From NCBI GenBank assembly GCA_002928965.1, contig PERU01000008.1:1-64000 (forward strand): 64,000 nucleotides of DNA, given 5' to 3'. Position 1 is the first letter of the stretch. Every line of letters begins with the position of its first letter. Of the stretch, positions 1-9,818 are shown piece by piece. A program made the translations under genes and the position numbers. The notes below the pieces were generated by a model. The model did no database searches and had not been told where the DNA came from. It worked only from the letters and a program-made list of their open reading frames with translations. The stretch comes from Methylomonas sp. Its GTDB lineage: Bacteria; Pseudomonadota; Gammaproteobacteria; Methylococcales; Methylomonadaceae.

Positions 1-3000
1 GCGTTCCCCGTACCCACGGGGCTGAACCGCCATCCAGCGCCGGAAAATTAACCAGCGCCGCGCGTTCCCCGTACCCACGGGGCTGAACCGCGGAAAAAAT
101 AGGGATAACAATTTTTGGCGGAGCGTTCCCCGTACCCACGGGGCTGAACCGAATTGCAAGAATTAAAGCGATTAGCGGCCTTGGCGTTCCCCGTACCCAC
201 GGGGCTGAACCGTTAAATTGACTATTTGAATAAAATGGCGTTTGGCGTTCCCCGTACCCACGGGGCTGAACCGCTTTATTGGTCACTGACGGAGAAGGGC
301 TTGCTGCGTTCCCCGTACCCACGGGGCTGAACCGCAAGCGCCCGCGCGGGAAATCGACGACCTATAGCGTTCCCCGTACCCACGGGGCTGAACCAGCAAC
401 GTGCCCACTGTCACCATGCACGAGGTGGCGTTCCCCGTACCCACGGGGCTGAACCGCAAGCCTTGCTGCTGTCGTTTTTGGTAGCAGAGCGTTCCCCGTA
501 CCCACGGGGCTGAACCGCAATCGCAATCCATGTCAACCATCAGCGCCAAGCGTTCCCCGTACCCACGGGGCTGAACCGGCAACTGTTACCCGCAAGACGG
601 TTTAATCTGGGCGTTCCCCGTACCCACGGGGCTGAACCGTAAGCTTACAATGTGACTCATGAACGATCATGGCGTTCCCCGTACCCACGGGGCTGAACCG
701 TCGCCGGTTCCGATCCGCTTCTCAAGGTGCGCGCGTTCCCCGTACCCACGGGGCTGAACCGGCGAGTAAACGGGCGTAACCATGCCGGAAATAGCGTTCC
801 CCGTACCCACGGGGCTGAACCGTCAATTTGAACAACTTTGGCTTCATCCTGACGGCGTTCCCCGTACCCACGGGGCTGAACCGCAAACGCCACGGTCAGC
901 TTGCCATCTGCGCGGGCGTTCCCCGTACCCACGGGGCTGAACCGCCGGTGTTGGGTATTTCCACAGAGCTGGAAAGGCGTTCCCCGTACCCACGGGGCTG
1001 AACCGCATTGGCAATCTAATTACATGGCTTGATGCGAGCGTTCCCCGTACCCACGGGGCTGAACCGCCATCATCCAGATGAATCACCGCCAGCGGGCCGC
1101 GTTCCCCGTACCCACGGGGCTGAACCGTATCTGTACCTTGAACCGGGTGATGCCGTTCGGCGTTCCCCGTACCCACGGGGCTGAACCGGCGTGCCGCGTC
1201 CAATTTCGGCAGATAATTGGGCGTTCCCCGTACCCACGGGGCTGAACCGCACATAATCCCCAACGGAATAACCATGCGCAACGCGTTCCCCGTACCCACG
1301 GGGCTGAACCGGTTAAGCCATCCGGCCACGTTTGTTTAAACGAGCGTTCCCCGTACCCACGGGGCTGAACCGTCCTTGCTGGATTTAACGCCGCCGATAG
1401 TCAAGCGTTCCCCGTACCCACGGGGCTGAACCGATTCCTTTTCCTTGTCGCTCAATTCCAGCATGGCGTTCCCCGTACCCACGGGGCTGAACCAGTAACG
1501 CCTTCAATACGGTATTGACCAAAGGCGCGTTCCCCGTACCCACGGGGCTGAACCGGCAAAACCCTTTCGTTCAACGTGCATGATATAGCGTTCCCCGTAC
1601 CCACGGGGCTGAACCGTTTTGTAGTGCATTCATGTTGGTTTCCTATTGGCGTTCCCCGTACCCACGGGGCTGAACCGGCTATTTGAGTCTGAGCCTGTAC
1701 AGAGTCAACCGCGTTCCCCGTACCCACGGGGCTGAACCGCCGACCAAATCATTCCGCAATACGCCGTGCAAGCGTTCCCCGTACCCACGGGGCTGAACCG
1801 CGGAGTATATGCAATGACCGCCTTAACGCTGTAGCGTTCCCCGTACCCACGGGGCTGAACCGCAATAGACCCGCCGGTACCGGTGATTTTAGTGGCGTTC
1901 CCCGTACCCACGGGGCTGAACCGGAACCTGTCATTTCGATGGCGGGACGATACGGGCGTTCCCCGTACCCACGGGGCTGAACCGACTGAATCAGCCGCCA
2001 CGTAATCCACATCATCGCGTTCCCCGTACCCACGGGGCTGAACCGATTTCAGCGACCACCGTCCAGCCGGCAGACTCGCGTTCCCCGTACCCACGGGGCT
2101 GAACCGCGTGCATCAAACACCAGGTCAATTTTATTGACGCGTTCCCCGTACCCACGGGGCTGAACCGCCGTTGGCGATTTCCTCGGTGGTCATTTGCGTG
2201 CGTTCCCCGTACCCACGGGGCTGAACCGTTGCCCAGCTTGTTTTTGTAACGGTCCACGCTGCGTTCCCCGTACCCACGGGGCTGAACCGCGCGGGTGGCG
2301 GTTGTTTCCCGCAGAAAAACCGCGTTCCCCGTACCCACGGGGCTGAACCGGCGCCACCATCGGCTATGGCCACCTGATTACGGCGTTCCCCGTACCCACG
2401 GGGCTGAACCGTATCAATCATCAAGGGCTTAGGCGACACAGCTGCGTTCCCCGTACCCACGGGGCTGAACCGGCGCGCTGGCATTGTTTAAAGCCGTCTG
2501 CAGTGCGTTCCCCGTACCCACGGGGCTGAACCGCTGGGGCGAAAATACATAGGCCATGAGCTACGGCGTTCCCCGTACCCACGGGGCTGAACCGAACGCC
2601 ATTTTAAGTGAGCCATGGCTTCGCAAGCGTTCCCCGTACCCACGGGGCTGAACCGCGTCCGGGCCTTCCGCGCCGGCTTCCCATGCTGCGTTCCCCGTAC
2701 CCACGGGGCTGAACCGGCGGCCATCTTTGCTTCTGCCAACGTTTCAACGCGTTCCCCGTACCCACGGGGCTGAACCGTTTTTGTGCCCGCCAATAATATA
2801 ACCACCAGAGCGTTCCCCGTACCCACGGGGCTGAACCGATCGACGCATTAAGCGCGGCAGCCTTGATAGCGCGTTCCCCGTACCCACGGGGCTGAACCGC
2901 TGGATTTGTTCAGCACAGCAGGCACCGAGCCGCGTTCCCCGTACCCACGGGGCTGAACCGCACATTCAGTCTCGCTGCTTGTTTTGATCCGTGCGTTCCC

Positions 3001-6000
3001 CGTACCCACGGGGCTGAACCGGCGGTAAATAAGTAGAAAGAAATTTTGCGTCGGCGTTCCCCGTACCCACGGGGCTGAACCGGGTTAAACCCGCTTCGCA
3101 AACTGCGCACGGCCGCGTTCCCCGTACCCACGGGGCTGAACCGTGCCAGTGCTTGACCATTTTTTATCGTCAGAAGCGTTCCCCGTACCCACGGGGCTGA
3201 ACCGGCAGTTATAGAGCTGGCGGACAGTATCAAGGCGCGTTCCCCGTACCCACGGGGCTGAACCGCGCGGCCTGTTCGGCCACGCTATACCCGGCCAGCG
3301 TTCCCCGTACCCACGGGGCTGAACCGAAGGGCCAGATGATTGACCCGTAATATACAAAGCGTTCCCCGTACCCACGGGGCTGAACCGTTAGTAACAACCT
3401 TTCGATTCTCTAAAAGAAAGCGTTCCCCGTACCCACGGGGCTGAACCGGTAGTATTGATTTTTTCAAGATCCGCGAGCGAGCGTTCCCCGTACCCACGGG
3501 GCTGAACCGGCCGCCCACGATCTTGTTAGACCTCAACAAACGCGTTCCCCGTACCCACGGGGCTGAACCGTTTCTAATTTCCCCATTAAAAAAGCTGATT
3601 TCGCGTTCCCCGTACCCACGGGGCTGAACCGATTGCCACATCCAGGACATTTAACAATATGTCGCGTTCCCCGTACCCACGGGGCTGAACCGTGCCTAAT
3701 CTCAACCCTGCACCAAAAACAGCAGCGTTCCCCGTACCCACGGGGCTGAACCGGCGCGGCCGTTCATTTCGCCACGGCGAATAGGGCGTTCCCCGTACCC
3801 ACGGGGCTGAACCGAACAACCACGTACCGGAATAGACAAATAAAGGGCGTTCCCCGTACCCACGGGGCTGAACCGCGTGACGATTTTCCCGCACCGCGCG
3901 GGTATTAGCGTTCCCCGTACCCACGGGGCTGAACCAGGGCAGGTATGGACATTCTAGCCGCCTATGACGCGTTCCCCGTACCCACGGGGCTGAACCAGAC
4001 AATATCCGGTTCGCGTCCAGATTCATCAAGCGTTCCCCGTACCCACGGGGCTGAACCGCCTCATTCAATCAAACGGAGTTAAAAAAATGCGCGTTCCCCG
4101 TACCCACGGGGCTGAACCGGCAAGCCCGCAAGCCGCAGCCCCGCAGGGGAAGCGTTCCCCGTACCCACGGGGCTGAACCGCCAACACCACAGGCCACAAC
4201 GAAGCACGCTCCGCGTTCCCCGTACCCACGGGGCTGAACCGTTTGACCTGTTGGACAAGTGGGTACTATTTGGGCGTTCCCCGTACCCACGGGGCTGAAC
4301 CGATTCACAAATATTTTGTTGGTTCCTAATTTGAGCGTTCCCCGTACCCACGGGGCTGAACCGAGATTACAAAACCGGCTCCTAGATACTGAGCGGCGTT
4401 CCCCGTACCCACGGGGCTGAACCGCGCGGCAGATTGTGAGCAACCGGCACCGGCATGCGTTCCCCGTACCCACGGGGCTGTACCGTATTTCCTAGTCATT
4501 ATAGCAAGTGTATAACCGGCGTTCCCCGTACCCACGGGGCTGAACCGATGGTATCGACAAAAACGATATTGATGACGGTGCGTTCCCCGTACCCACGGGG
4601 CTGAACCGCTGATTCTGATTCTGATGGTGTGGGTGATATGGCGTTCCCCGTACCCACGGGGCTGAACCGTTCTTCCGATCTTCTGCAAACTCAAACCGTT
4701 GGCGTTCCCCGTACCCACGGGGCTGAACCGCCAGGGCTAGTTTTTCTGAATGCTGGACGCGCGCGTTCCCCGTACCCACGGGGCTGAACCGGCGGCTGAG
4801 GTTGAATCTTTAAAACGTAACGTGCGTTCCCCGTACCCACGGGGCTGAACCGCACTGGAAGAAAAGCGCACAATAGTTACAAACGCGTTCCCCGTACCCA
4901 CGGGGCTGAACCGGTACGCATCAGAATCACTTTTAGCCAGATAAGGCGTTCCCCGTACCCACGGGGCTGAACCGGTTATTAGTCGTATCTAGTAACGTTA
5001 CAAAAAGCGTTCCCCGTACCCACGGGGCTGAACCGCCGTTTCAGCGTATTTACTGGCTAGTGTCCGTGCGTTCCCCGTACCCACGGGGCTGAACCGGTAG
5101 GTTGCAAGCTGCTTACCACCCATCCATGGCGTTCCCCGTACCCACGGGGCTGAACCGACGGCCCACGCGCCACCCACCGGAGAGCGTCAGCGTTCCCCGT
5201 ACCCACGGGGCTGAACCGGCTGCAACCGGTACCGCGCATGCTGTTGGCGAGCGTTCCCCGTACCCACGGGGCTGAACCGGCTGGAGCATTGCGCCGCCAG
5301 TGCATAGCAAAGCGTTCCCCGTACCCACGGGGCTGAACCGGCGATGGCATCCAGTATGCCTTCGCACAAATAGCGTTCCCCGTACCCACGGGGCTGAACC
5401 GCCGAGCCTTTGCCCATGCCTCCAAGATTAAAGGCGTTCCCCGTACCCACGGGGCTGAACCGTTAGGCAGTCAACTGGATCTAGGCCTTGGGGTGCGTTC
5501 CCCGTACCCACGGGGCTGAACCGCCATGACCCAATTTGGCACCACCATGAACCAAGCGTTCCCCGTACCCACGGGGCTGAACCGGCCAGCGAGGCATTGT
5601 CACGGGTGCGGCTGGGGCGTTCCCCGTACCCACGGGGCTGAACCGGCAAATACTGGCACCCGCACGGCGACAAAGGCGCGTTCCCCGTACCCACGGGGCT
5701 GAACCGACGACCGCAAGGTTAGCGAATGGCTGCGGCATGCGTTCCCCGTACCCACGGGGCTGAACCGACCTGGATCAAATGGAGGCCGCATGACTGTGCG
5801 CGTTCCCCGTACCCACGGGGCTGAACCGTCACTTTCACGCTAAAACCTCCTCAAGTTTTGGCGTTCCCCGTACCCACGGGGCTGAACCGAAATTATTGAA
5901 GATCAGGATAAAGTGATAGAAGCGTTCCCCGTACCCACGGGGCTGAACCGGTTGCAAGTGGCATGGCTGCGCACAAACAATGGCGTTCCCCGTACCCACG

Positions 6001-9000
6001 GGGCTGAACCCAAGCCGGGCGGCTGCCACCACAAGCCTTTAAAGCGTTCCCCGTACCCACGGGGCTGAACCGCCGGCGCAACCAGAAACCCCGATTGTTC
6101 CGCCGCGTTCCCCGTACCCACGGGGCTGAACCGCGCCCCGCAAAACCAGAAACCAAAAATACTGCGCGTTCCCCGTACCCACGGGGTTGAACCGGCGGCT
6201 ATGTAGACCACCCTGCAGAGCATGGCGCGTTCCCCGTACCCACGGGGCTGAACCGGACTCGTCAGAAAAAACGACAGCCAGCGGGAATGCGTTCCCCGTA
6301 CCCACGGGGCTGAACCGCCTGAGAACGTTACGAAGCCAAGTCCAAGAGAGCGTTCCCCGTACCCACGGGGCTGAACCGTAGCAACGGCAGCATGTGCACC
6401 AGTTGAAACAGCGTTCCCCGTACCCACGGGGCTGAACCGTATCAAGTTGGAAAGGCCGCACCATGTACGATGCGTTCCCCGTACCCACGGGGCTGAACCG
6501 AAAGTTCCAACTGCACTTCCTTAATGGTGGTCGCGTTCCCCGTACCCACGGGGCTGAACCGTTACTAAAGGGAAATTTCGGTTCTATTAAAATGCGTTCC
6601 CCGTACCCACGGGGCTGAACCGTTTGCATAGGTGTTAATAGATATAGCTCCCAGGCGTTCCCCGTACCCACGGGGCTGAACCGTAGACAAAAATTTAGCG
6701 TCTGGTGAATCTTGAGCGTTCCCCGTACCCACGGGGCTGAACCGGTTGAAATTGTTGATTACCTGCGAATGATACAGCGTTCCCCGTACCCACGGGGCTG
6801 AACCGTTTTCTCGAGCATCATAAGCAGATAGCGCATAGCGTTCCCCGTACCCACGGGGCTGAACCGGTGTGGGTGATGAAAACGCCTTCGATCGGCAGGC
6901 GTTCCCCGTACCCACGGGGCTGAACCGCCAACCAATAAAGCCGATGGCGAAAGCGTCGCGCGTTCCCCGTACCCACGGGGCTGAACCGCCAACCAATAAA
7001 GCCGATGGCGAAAGCGTCGCGCGTTCCCCGTACCCACGGGGCTGAACCGAGATAACGCAGCTTCAGAAATCATAGGCGGGTGCGTTCCCCGTACCCACGG
7101 GGCTGAACCGCGTATTGAAGCAGAACTGGCAAAGACTGAGCCGCGTTCCCCGTACCCACGGGGCTGAACCGGCATTGAAAGAGCCGGGGGATGTGGGTTT
7201 GTCGCGTTCCCCGTACCCACGGGGCTGAACCGCCGGTGCTCTTTTCCGTGAATTTGTAGCCGTTGCGTTCCCCGTACCCACGGGGCTGAACCGGATTGTA
7301 ATCAGGTCGGCACGGTTCGCGCTCTGCGTTCCCCGTACCCACGGGGCTGAACCGCACCCTTACCAGTTGCCCTTGCTTCTGTTTCGGCGTTCCCCGTACC
7401 CACGGGGCTGAACCGTATTGTTGAAAATTTATAGTGATTTTGTATGGGCGTTCCCCGTACCCACGGGGCTGAACCGCCTTTGAGTGAGCAGCCGCAGAGC
7501 ATCCGAGAGCGTTCCCCGTACCCACGGGGCTGAACCGCGCGGCTCTTTCGTTTGGCGTATGCACTGGCAGCGTTCCCCGTACCCACGGGGCTGAACCGCA
7601 GTTCACGATGAATGGCTTGGTTAAAAACCTGGCGTTCCCCGTACCCACGGGGCTGAACCGGGTTTTGCGATATGCAAACGCACGACCGGCACGCGTTCCC
7701 CGTACCCACGGGGCTGAACCGTGCGCCCGCTTGTTTGTCGCCTTCGATGTAATGCGTTCCCCGTACCCACGGGGCTGAACCGCGTACAAGGCGGTTACTG
7801 CATACGCTGGGAATGCGTTCCCCGTACCCACGGGGCTGAACCGACGCCTTGATGACGCTGTTAAGCGGCGCACGTGCGTTCCCCGTACCCACGGGGCTGA
7901 ACCGAACATAGCCAGATCGTTAAATATCCCTGTGATGCGTTCCCCGTACCCACGGGGCTGAACCGCAATAAAACCTAAGCGCCGAGTTATCGAGGCGGCG
8001 TTCCCCGTACCCACGGGGCTGAACCGGCGTTTGACCTGTTTGTGGGTTTGGGGCAGGGGCGTTCCCCGTACCCACGGGGCTGAACCGCAGGGCAGGGGGT
8101 CAACCATGCTTAATCATAAGCGTTCCCCGTACCCACGGGGCTGAACCGTGAAACCGTAAAAACCATCGGGCCGGTCAAATGCGTTCCCCGTACCCACGGG
8201 GCTGAACCGCCGTTTCCGCTGCCTCTGCTGCTGCCACGTTTAGCGTTCCCCGTACCCACGGGGCTGAACCTAAGCAGGTAAAGCCTGCGGGGGAAAATAA
8301 TGCGCGTTCCCCGTACCCACGGGGCTGAACCGAACTGACATTTTGAAACCCCTTTTTGTTAGGTGCGTTCCCCGTACCCACGGGGCTGAACCGCAACCCA
8401 TCATTATCGTTATCCCATTGACAACGCGTTCCCCGTACCCACGGGGCTGAACCGTGCAGCAGGGGCAACATATCAAAAGTTAGGGAGCGTTCCCCGTACC
8501 CACGGGGCTGAACCGACAGATACAAATTCACGGAAAAGTGCGCCCGAGCGTTCCCCGTACCCACGGGGCTGAACCGTTGCCAAATCTGGCTTGATAGTAG
8601 ATAGAACAGCGTTCCCCGTACCCACGGGGCTGAACCGAATATTACCGCCATTCATAACGTAATGACTGGGCGTTCCCCGTACCCACGGGGCTGAACCGTT
8701 CCGTTTGTGCAAGACGATATAATTAGTTGAGCGTTCCCCGTACCCACGGGGCTGAACCGGAATAAAATGCCTTATCAATATAAAGGATATTGCGTTCCCC
8801 GTACCCACGGGGCTGAACCGCCATACAAACGCCACATCAGACAGCATTACATGCGTTCCCCGTACCCACGGGGCTGAACCGGGGCTTTCAGGAACAACAG
8901 CCAACTTTATAAAGCGTTCCCCGTACCCACGGGGCTGAACCGATTGCCGCCGAAACGGAAGCCATCACCCTCAAGCGTTCCCCGTACCCACGGGGCTGAA

Positions 9001-9430
9001 CCGGTTGACACGATACGCGGTGAAGTTAGGCCAGAGCGTTCCCCGTACCCACGGGGCTGAACCGACCCGTTGTGGTAACCGGGTCAGGCTCAGTAGGCGT
9101 TCCCCGTACCCACGGGGCTGAACCTCGGCCCGATAGGATTGAGGCAAGGTCAGCCGCGCGTTCCCCGTACCCACGGGGCTGAACCGAAATGAAATTGACG
9201 TTTGACATCGTGCAAACCGCGTTCCCCGTACCCACGGGGCTGAACCGGATGATAACAACGATTTGACAAAACAAAAGCCGCGTTCCCCGTACCCACGGGG
9301 CTGAACCGGCAGCGGCAACATGCCGACTGCCCCGGCAAACGCGTTCCCCGTACCCACGGGGCTGAACCGCGGCGAGGTTGATGTGGGATGGGTGTGAATA
9401 AGTGTTCCCCGTACCCACGGGGCTGAACCG
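1..9430 (+). CRISPR. Very large type I-E-like CRISPR array (155 repeats in window, left end open)
   Basis: A 29-bp repeat beginning GCGTTCCCCG and ending CTGAACCG recurs every 61 or 62 bp. The first starts at base 1 and the last of the block is at 9402-9430. The span of 9401 bp equals 154 intervals of 61 plus seven extra bases, giving 155 repeats and 154 spacers of 32-33 nt. Each repeat folds into CCCCGT-ACCC-ACGGGG. The form and orientation match the E. coli-type I-E repeat, so transcription is inferred rightward, with Cas6e expected to leave the handle CTGAACCG. The last repeat of the block starts GTG instead of GCG, which fits a leader-distal end. A few repeats vary: the final base near 419, 1491, 6010, 8270 and 9124, an internal A-to-T at 4457-4485, and a C-to-T at 6166-6194. 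Leader and cas genes are not in the window. Confidence 0.98.
6899..7020 (+). repeat. Tandemly duplicated repeat-spacer unit in the array
   Basis: Two consecutive 61-bp units (6899-6959 and 6960-7020) are identical, including the 32-nt spacer that begins CCAACCAATAAAG. Spacer acquisition normally yields unique neighbours, so this is best read as a replication or recombination duplication of one unit inside the array. Confidence 0.95.
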
Positions 9431-9431
9431 C

Positions 9432-9563
9432 CGGTTGGCTGTGCGATTTGGTCGTCTTAAGTCAGATGGCGTGGCAGTGCTCGATACAGCGACGGTATTT
9501 CACACCGCAAAAGCGCAGTTTGATGACTATTTGCGTCGAGGACGTTATAAAAAAATCAGGTAG
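9432..9563 (+). pseudogene. C-terminal fragment of an unrecognised protein
   Basis: Directly after the degenerate repeat an open frame of 43 codons runs to TAG at 9561-9563. It has no start codon of its own, so it looks like the tail of a longer gene. The peptide is basic at its end (about residues 33-43 are rich in R and K, ending GRYKKIR) and contains AKAQFDDYLRR. I do not recognise the family. A phage structural gene is possible, but that rests only on the likely phage origin of captured DNA. It could equally be chance, since 43 codons is short. Confidence 0.35.
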
Positions 9564-9647
9564 ACAGTCCCCGGATTCGAACTGGGAGAGGCGAAAGCAT
9601 CTGCTAACGGCGGCACACCATGCGCCCGCACACAAACTGTCTACCTG
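9557..9647 (+). ncRNA. Candidate four-way-junction structured RNA
   Basis: A perfect 12-bp inverted repeat (CAGGTAGACAGT at 9557-9568, ACTGTCTACCTG at 9636-9647) closes a 67-nt interior that can form three more stems on the plus strand. One is CCC/GGG around a TTCGAA-containing loop. The second is AGAGGC-GAAA-GCATCT, with a GNRA tetraloop. The third is a GC-rich stem GGC(g)GCA-CACCA-TGCGCC. Read on the minus strand, the first arm resembles a tRNA T-arm (CCCAG-TTCGAAT-CCGGG with one mismatch) followed by an acceptor-like helix, but no canonical D or anticodon arm is visible. The 3' arm ends ten bases before the Shine-Dalgarno of the next ORF, so it may be a leader RNA. Strand and function are undetermined. 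Confidence 0.5.
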
Positions 9648-9667
9648 TCATTAGTATAGGAGTAACT

Positions 9668-9766
9668 ATGATTGAAATCGAGTTTGATTTAACGGGCATG
9701 CATAATGAGTTTGATGACATGCTCAGGCGCGTTCCCCGTACCCACGGGGCTGAACCGCGGGTTTAG
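9668..9766 (+). CDS. Short ORF (32 aa) with strong SD that reads into the CRISPR repeat
   Basis: ATG at 9668 is preceded by TAGGAG at 9657-9662, an optimal ribosome site. The first 20 codons (MIEIEFDLTGMHNEFDDMLR) look like a real protein start. The frame then runs through the repeat at 9729-9757 and stops at TAG 9764-9766. The acidic start MIEIEFDL resembles that of phage HK97-gp10-like proteins, but only as a general impression. Either this is the 5' end of a gene cut off by the CRISPR repeat, or a genuine small peptide gene whose tail is encoded by the repeat. Confidence 0.4.
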   Translation: MIEIEFDLTGMHNEFDDMLRRVPRTHGAEPRV

Positions 9767-9818
9767 CCTTCGACTCCGCTCAGGCTCCGGTGTTCACCGT
9801 ACCTACGGGCCTGAACCG
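9729..9818 (+). CRISPR. Detached terminal unit: repeat, 32-nt spacer, decayed repeat
   Basis: A perfect repeat (9729-9757) is followed by a 32-nt spacer (9758-9789) and a decayed 29-bp repeat (9790-9818) with four substitutions relative to the consensus. This is the true leader-distal end of the array if the 298-bp segment is an insertion. The spacer contains AGCCT...AGGCT, which can pair into a hairpin around TTCGACTCCGCTC. Confidence 0.9.

Follow-up and report, generated by a model that had tools for sequence, protein, structure and literature searches.

Near the end of a type I-E CRISPR array in Methylomonas sp., the place of an ordinary spacer is taken by a 298-bp segment of phage-like DNA. 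We think it probable, with moderate confidence, that this segment is an oversized spacer acquired by Cas1-Cas2 in a single capture, its source being a Mu-like phage of methanotrophs akin to the host. The sequence-only reading that drew attention to the segment had offered a giant captured fragment as one of its explanations, and this is the one that the comparisons bear out: the DNA is that of a Mu-like phage, and in both phage relatives a type I-E PAM borders its 5′ edge.

The window, by which we mean the whole 64,000-nt stretch of contig PERU01000008.1 analyzed here, starts inside the array, which occupies positions 1–9818 on the (+) strand and has 157 repeats in the window, the degenerate terminal one included. 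Its 156 spacers in the window comprise 148 of 32 nt, seven of 33 nt and the giant spacer of 298 nt (9431–9728, (+) strand), which is the next-to-last interval of the array and begins CCGGTTGG after the preceding repeat. That repeat, on the PAM side (9402–9430, (+) strand), is a GTGTTCC variant with 28 of 29 consensus bases, and the repeat on the far side (9729–9757, (+) strand) has all 29. The interval reported earlier in place of a 32-nt spacer is exactly 298 bp long between these two near-identical repeats; the giant spacer is flanked by repeats on both sides, as a type I-E spacer is, and its length lies outside the 32 or 33 nt of such spacers. The terminal repeat (9790–9818, (+) strand) is degenerate, with four mismatches. 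The genome encodes Cas1e and Cas2e in an eight-gene type I-E operon that is complete; the type I-E genes cse1, cse2, cas7, cas5, cas6, cas1 and cas2 scored above the NCBIfam cut-offs; cas3 scored above the cut-offs of the core and HD models and below that of the full-length model. One more repeat is carried at the end of another contig, C2, right after cas2 and a short leader-like stretch. From this repeat beside the cas operon, and from the degenerate last repeat, we infer that C2 joins the contig of the window (C8) at the array and that the giant spacer is leader-distal. Elsewhere in the array, an identical 32-nt spacer is found in two consecutive copies (6928–6959 and 6989–7020). The terminal spacer (9758–9789) contains CCTTCGACTCCGCTCAGG, and because this sequence recurs in the genome, with two exact copies and one with one mismatch, the spacer may be derived from a host repeat.

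When 151 genomes were searched, the full 298 bp aligned without gaps in two of them, G067 (254 of 298 bases identical, 85%; E = 6.7e-94) and G020 (244 of 298, 82%; E = 1.2e-80). These are the full-length copies among the 150 other genomes, the remaining listed matches being short; the genome of the window gave the segment itself and one 17-nt match, with no second copy. G020 is assigned to the genus of the window’s genome and G067 to its family, and both belong to what we take to be one methanotroph family, Methylomonadaceae. Both copies sit within phage genes and outside any array, so that elsewhere the sequence of the giant spacer is found as mobile-element DNA in a non-array setting. A blastn search of the 298 bp against phage and plasmid collections returned no match. 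Nowhere in the 151 genomes searched did the 298 bp appear as chromosomal DNA joining two arrays, an arrangement that the earlier reading had also raised; we set aside chromosomal DNA between two arrays as a source.

The segment is colinear with the phage, running from the end of a MuF-like gene through an intergenic element to the start of a virion-morphogenesis gene. Its first part (9432–9563, (+) strand) holds the last 43 codons and the stop of a MuF-like minor head gene whose phage homologue matches phrog_220. The frame is open from 9432 to 9560 and ends with TAG at 9561–9563; what had been described as a gene-end-like frame is the tail of this phage gene, although the 43-aa piece by itself matched no family. 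At the other end, the Shine-Dalgarno sequence and ATG recognized earlier are present as AGGAG (9658–9662, (+) strand) and as the ATG at 9668 that opens the phage virion-morphogenesis gene, of which the segment holds the first 20 codons (9668–9728, (+) strand; PF05069 in the homologue). No reading frame is broken in the window copy. Coding changes placed on one branch are silent in 9 of 15 cases for the window, 5 of 9 for G067 and 9 of 16 for G020; with the small numbers and the unrooted comparison, this pattern fits evolution as phage before capture.

Mu-like head genes are found in the order known from Mu (terminase, portal, MuF, virion morphogenesis), and it is from the head genes only that the label ‘Mu-like’ is taken. 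A partial viral contig, L060, encodes a virion-morphogenesis protein 100% identical to that of G067 and contains the intergenic element; its genes include terminase, portal, minor head and endolysin families, with an integrase family at one end. The MuF-like protein matched 126 phage records, 120 of them named Pseudomonas (for example JBD26, with 32% identity), and a scan of viral contigs with this protein gave nothing beyond the contig already known.

The main PAM of type I-E systems is AAG, whose G becomes the final base of the repeat. The bases that precede the segment are GAAAG in both G067 and G020, which places an AAG PAM, in type I-E orientation, beside the end where the segment meets the 3′ end of the repeat before it; this PAM was read from two phage relatives at 82–85% identity and not from the donor phage. 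Among the trinucleotides of the phage contig AAG accounts for 1.4% and AGG for 1.1%, together 2.5%, and this rarity, combined with the GAAAG flank in both relatives, is why the 5′ edge of the giant spacer looks chosen by the integrase. The array's other spacers bear this out in part: ten of them have targets (at least 25 matching bases, in fetched loci), preceded by AGG in four cases, by AAG in one and by something else in five; one of these last five, spacer s51, has five targets that differ from one another. Seven repeats in the window have A, T or C in place of a final G (395, 1494, 3936, 3997, 6011, 8271 and 9125). For the spacer at 6012 the target in genome G035 likewise has a C ahead of the protospacer, and a PAM origin of the final repeat base would lead one to expect a C in both places. 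One study, of a type I-F system, likewise describes the first spacer nucleotide as deriving from the PAM (PMC5059440).

The edges of the segment also bear on whether it might be an assembly artefact. The contig ends within the array, and repeats are hard to assemble; both flanks, however, join exactly at repeat boundaries, the assembly contains no further copy of the phage piece that could cause a chimaera, and a PAM edge is unexpected from a random join. We regard an artefact as very improbable.

The right end of the segment looks different from the left. Directly ahead of the last 32 nt stands GGG or GGA, ahead of the last 33 CGG, and neither AAG nor AGG is found before the last 31–34 nt in the window, in G067 or in G020, which makes it unlikely, as judged from these flanks, that two spacers were simply fused. 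A related explanation is that two ordinary spacers from the same phage, with starts 266 bp apart, were bridged by gene conversion with phage DNA that erased the repeat or repeats between them. It would account for the colinearity of the segment with phage DNA, but the same lack of AAG or AGG at the second start, in the window and in either relative, speaks against it. This lack is no proof, since five of the ten other spacers are also without AAG or AGG, and we hold such bridging to be improbable.

The right junction itself falls on the first base of a complete repeat. Here the phage continues GCAT and the repeat begins GCGTT, so that two nucleotides (GC) are common to both. This overlap, together with the PAM end, could be explained by a two-step route in which a normal 32-nt spacer with an AAG PAM was acquired, the phage recombined in through that spacer, and a deletion at the 2-nt microhomology left 266 bp extra. 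Such a route, however, would require the phage to recombine through 32 bp, the cell to survive self-targeting, and the deletion to end by chance on the first base of a complete repeat. We give it a modest chance, well below that of capture in one step, which is the simplest account and more economical than the two-step route. Several points nonetheless weigh against one-step capture. The length errors named in the type I-F studies discussed below are small, and the PAM is that of phage relatives. The 2-nt microhomology at the right junction is compatible with end joining too, and half of the comparison spacers (five of ten) lack AAG or AGG. A description of array detection places insertions and deletions above all at the 3′ ends of arrays (PMC4869251), near which this next-to-last interval lies, and odd spacer lengths have been attributed also to array rearrangement, in a study of a type I-F1 system (PMC7296934).

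We compared the giant spacer with other spacers of this array and of related ones. Searched against relatives, the array spacers matched at least 7 of 121 genomes, the own genome included; because only two candidates were scored per genome, these counts of targets are minimum values. Compared with the phage collection, the stretch made up of the array's first 7990 bases gave one marginal hit (E = 0.7). Six spacers (at 2351, 5341, 5585, 5646, 5829 and 6012) match a single 40-kb stretch of genome G035 (G035:C1:2310001-2350000; L089-L090) at 26 to 31 of 32 bases, and this stretch is likely a prophage. Array matches were present in 11 of 37 genomes of the genus, the own genome included. As a length control we used ten array stretches from seven sister genomes (G018, G006, G024, G025, G028, G013 and G031), a set that omits the matching arrays of G011, G026 and G036. 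Within it, 332 of 337 intervals are 31–33 nt long, one is 50 nt, and four (373, 27, 20 and 20 nt) lie in one part of a G031 array. The 373-nt stretch of G031 was not counted as an insert, as it contains decayed repeats when judged by eye. The 50-nt spacer, in the sister array of G028 (L112, 1434–1484), consists of a GGAACA repeat.

Between the two phage gene fragments lies the intergenic element (9557–9647, assigned to the (−) strand, on which the two relatives weakly match tRNA-Sec). The 12-bp closing helix that had been called perfect is so (9557–9568 paired with 9636–9647), and the 91-nt fold has a predicted energy of −36.5 kcal/mol on the (+) strand (z = −4.27) and −37.6 kcal/mol on the (−) strand (z = −2.60). 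A 30-bp stretch (9608–9637, no strand assigned) is identical in all three copies and is their longest invariant run. The GNRA-capped arm proposed earlier fared less evenly: it is present in the window (GGCGAAAGC), and the GNRA loop is kept in form in G020 (GTCGGAAGC), but G067 (GTCAAAAGC) is without GNRA, and neither relative retains the second pair of the arm. Covariation in the stems is minimal in the three sequences: a single pair differs on both sides, and in the arm to which it belongs the window copy has one broken pair.

On the antisense strand, the elements of the two relatives gave full-length weak matches to tRNA-Sec (RF01852), with 22.4 and 19.6 bits, both below the gathering score of 47 bits; the window copy had no Rfam match on that strand. 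On the window, Rfam gave two matches that look like chance, one of which spans 9665 to 9732. ARAGORN predicted no tRNA in the window, nor at the element in loci L003 and L004, the two loci in which the antisense element aligns weakly with the whole tRNA-Sec model. Drawn as GGTAGAC/GTCTACC, the stem is not followed by CCA; in the G020 copy these three letters overlap the end of the stem. A run of six T follows the antisense element on that strand in the Mu-like methanotroph phages. A consensus scan of L003 from 600 to 950 found no promoter, and the two terminator-like sites that it gave lie in the next gene and not at the element. A tRNA-like phage RNA is at this stage a lead.

The element lies between the MuF-like and virion-morphogenesis genes in L003 (702–797, (−) strand), L004 (1578–1673, (+) strand) and L060 (2877–2972, (+) strand). 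A covariance model built from three sequences gave strong matches only to the window, G067, G020 and the viral contig L060; the scan also detected the G067 copy in L015, and nothing in L100. In the scan of 151 genomes, G016 gave a weak hit (26.6 bits; E = 0.0019 for this genome alone), which we set aside as chance-like. The best covariance score was 15.1 bits among 41 further viral loci that encode a relative of the virion-morphogenesis protein, and 14.1 bits in six more loci (L116 and L084-L088). The annotation of phage JBD26 has the two genes overlapping by one base, which leaves no room for the element there. As far as searched, the element appears confined to a small phage group.

These data also bear on whether a mobile structured RNA, as the sequence-only reading had suggested, or a small transposon was inserted inside a spacer. 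The perfect 12-bp terminal inverted repeat and the strong fold are what such an element might show; yet it occupies the same site between the same two genes in both phage relatives, and the phage coding sequence flanking it on both sides belongs to the segment. It is single-copy in the own genome, its core pattern is found in 3 of 151 genomes (the own included) with one occurrence each, and no copies at unrelated sites were found in the own genome or the 151 genomes. That the element moved into the spacer by itself is therefore extremely unlikely; the shared site and the coding flanks contradict it. The folded RNA is an older phage feature, which entered the array within the captured DNA. The third of the earlier readings, a functional cassette retained by the array, found no support, and none of the results points to a role of the fold in the array.

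In a one-step capture, the PAM end of the phage fragment would have been recognized and cut normally by Cas1-Cas2, while the PAM-distal end would have been left untrimmed and not cut to 32–33 nt. A fragment about nine times too long would then have been joined to the repeat at both ends, repair would have duplicated the repeat as in a normal capture, and the tRNA-like fold would have been carried in as a passenger. If transcribed, the giant spacer would be freed by Cas6 as a giant crRNA, with a normal PAM-adjacent guide in its first 32 nt; these 32 nt match the phage at 31 of 32 bases in G020 and at 29 of 32 in G067. The more far-reaching proposal, that type I-E Cas1-Cas2 completes both integrations of a duplex of about 300 bp by measuring the PAM end only, and that the product is transcribed, loaded as an extended Cascade guide and targets the phage, is in our view rather unlikely as a whole.

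By the view set out in one type I-F study (PMC5059440), a fixed ruler sets the length of the spacers that the type I-E integrase takes up. That a PAM sits at the right end of a spacer nine times too long suggests that, in nature, recognition of the PAM can be uncoupled from the measuring of length, and that an array tolerates an oversized spacer. Array finders may mishandle such a case; CRISPRDetect, as described in PMC4869251, has a default limit of 125 nt for the distance between repeats in extending an array.

Among known systems, the closest are the ordinary type I-E spacers of the same array, which the giant spacer resembles in its flanking repeats, in the PAM on the side of the preceding repeat and in the phage-like targets that several of them have, and from which it differs in being 298 nt long instead of 32 or 33 nt. 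A search of open-licence papers by titles and abstract starts found none on natural giant spacers. Spacers of the wrong length are described for type I-F systems: a natural type I-F1 array has spacers of 31, 33 and 56 bp beside those of 32 (PMC7296934), and in another type I-F system fewer than 1% of spacers are other than 32 or 33 nt (PMC5059440). In what these two papers describe, such spacers mostly keep a canonical PAM end and have the PAM-distal end displaced, as here, whereas the lengths they name deviate by at most 24 bp, compared with 266 bp in our case, which is type I-E. Long guides can be loaded as well: type I-F1 spacers of up to 176 nt have been made, Cascade with a 176-nt spacer has been purified, and the extended complexes impeded phage like the normal one (PMC7296934). 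Those complexes were engineered, with shorter spacers and in another subtype, whereas the giant spacer described here is natural and known from its sequence alone. The passenger element, finally, resembles tRNA-Sec (RF01852) in the weak antisense match of both phage relatives to the whole model, and differs from it in their scores below the gathering cut-off, in the negative ARAGORN result and in the unmatched window copy.
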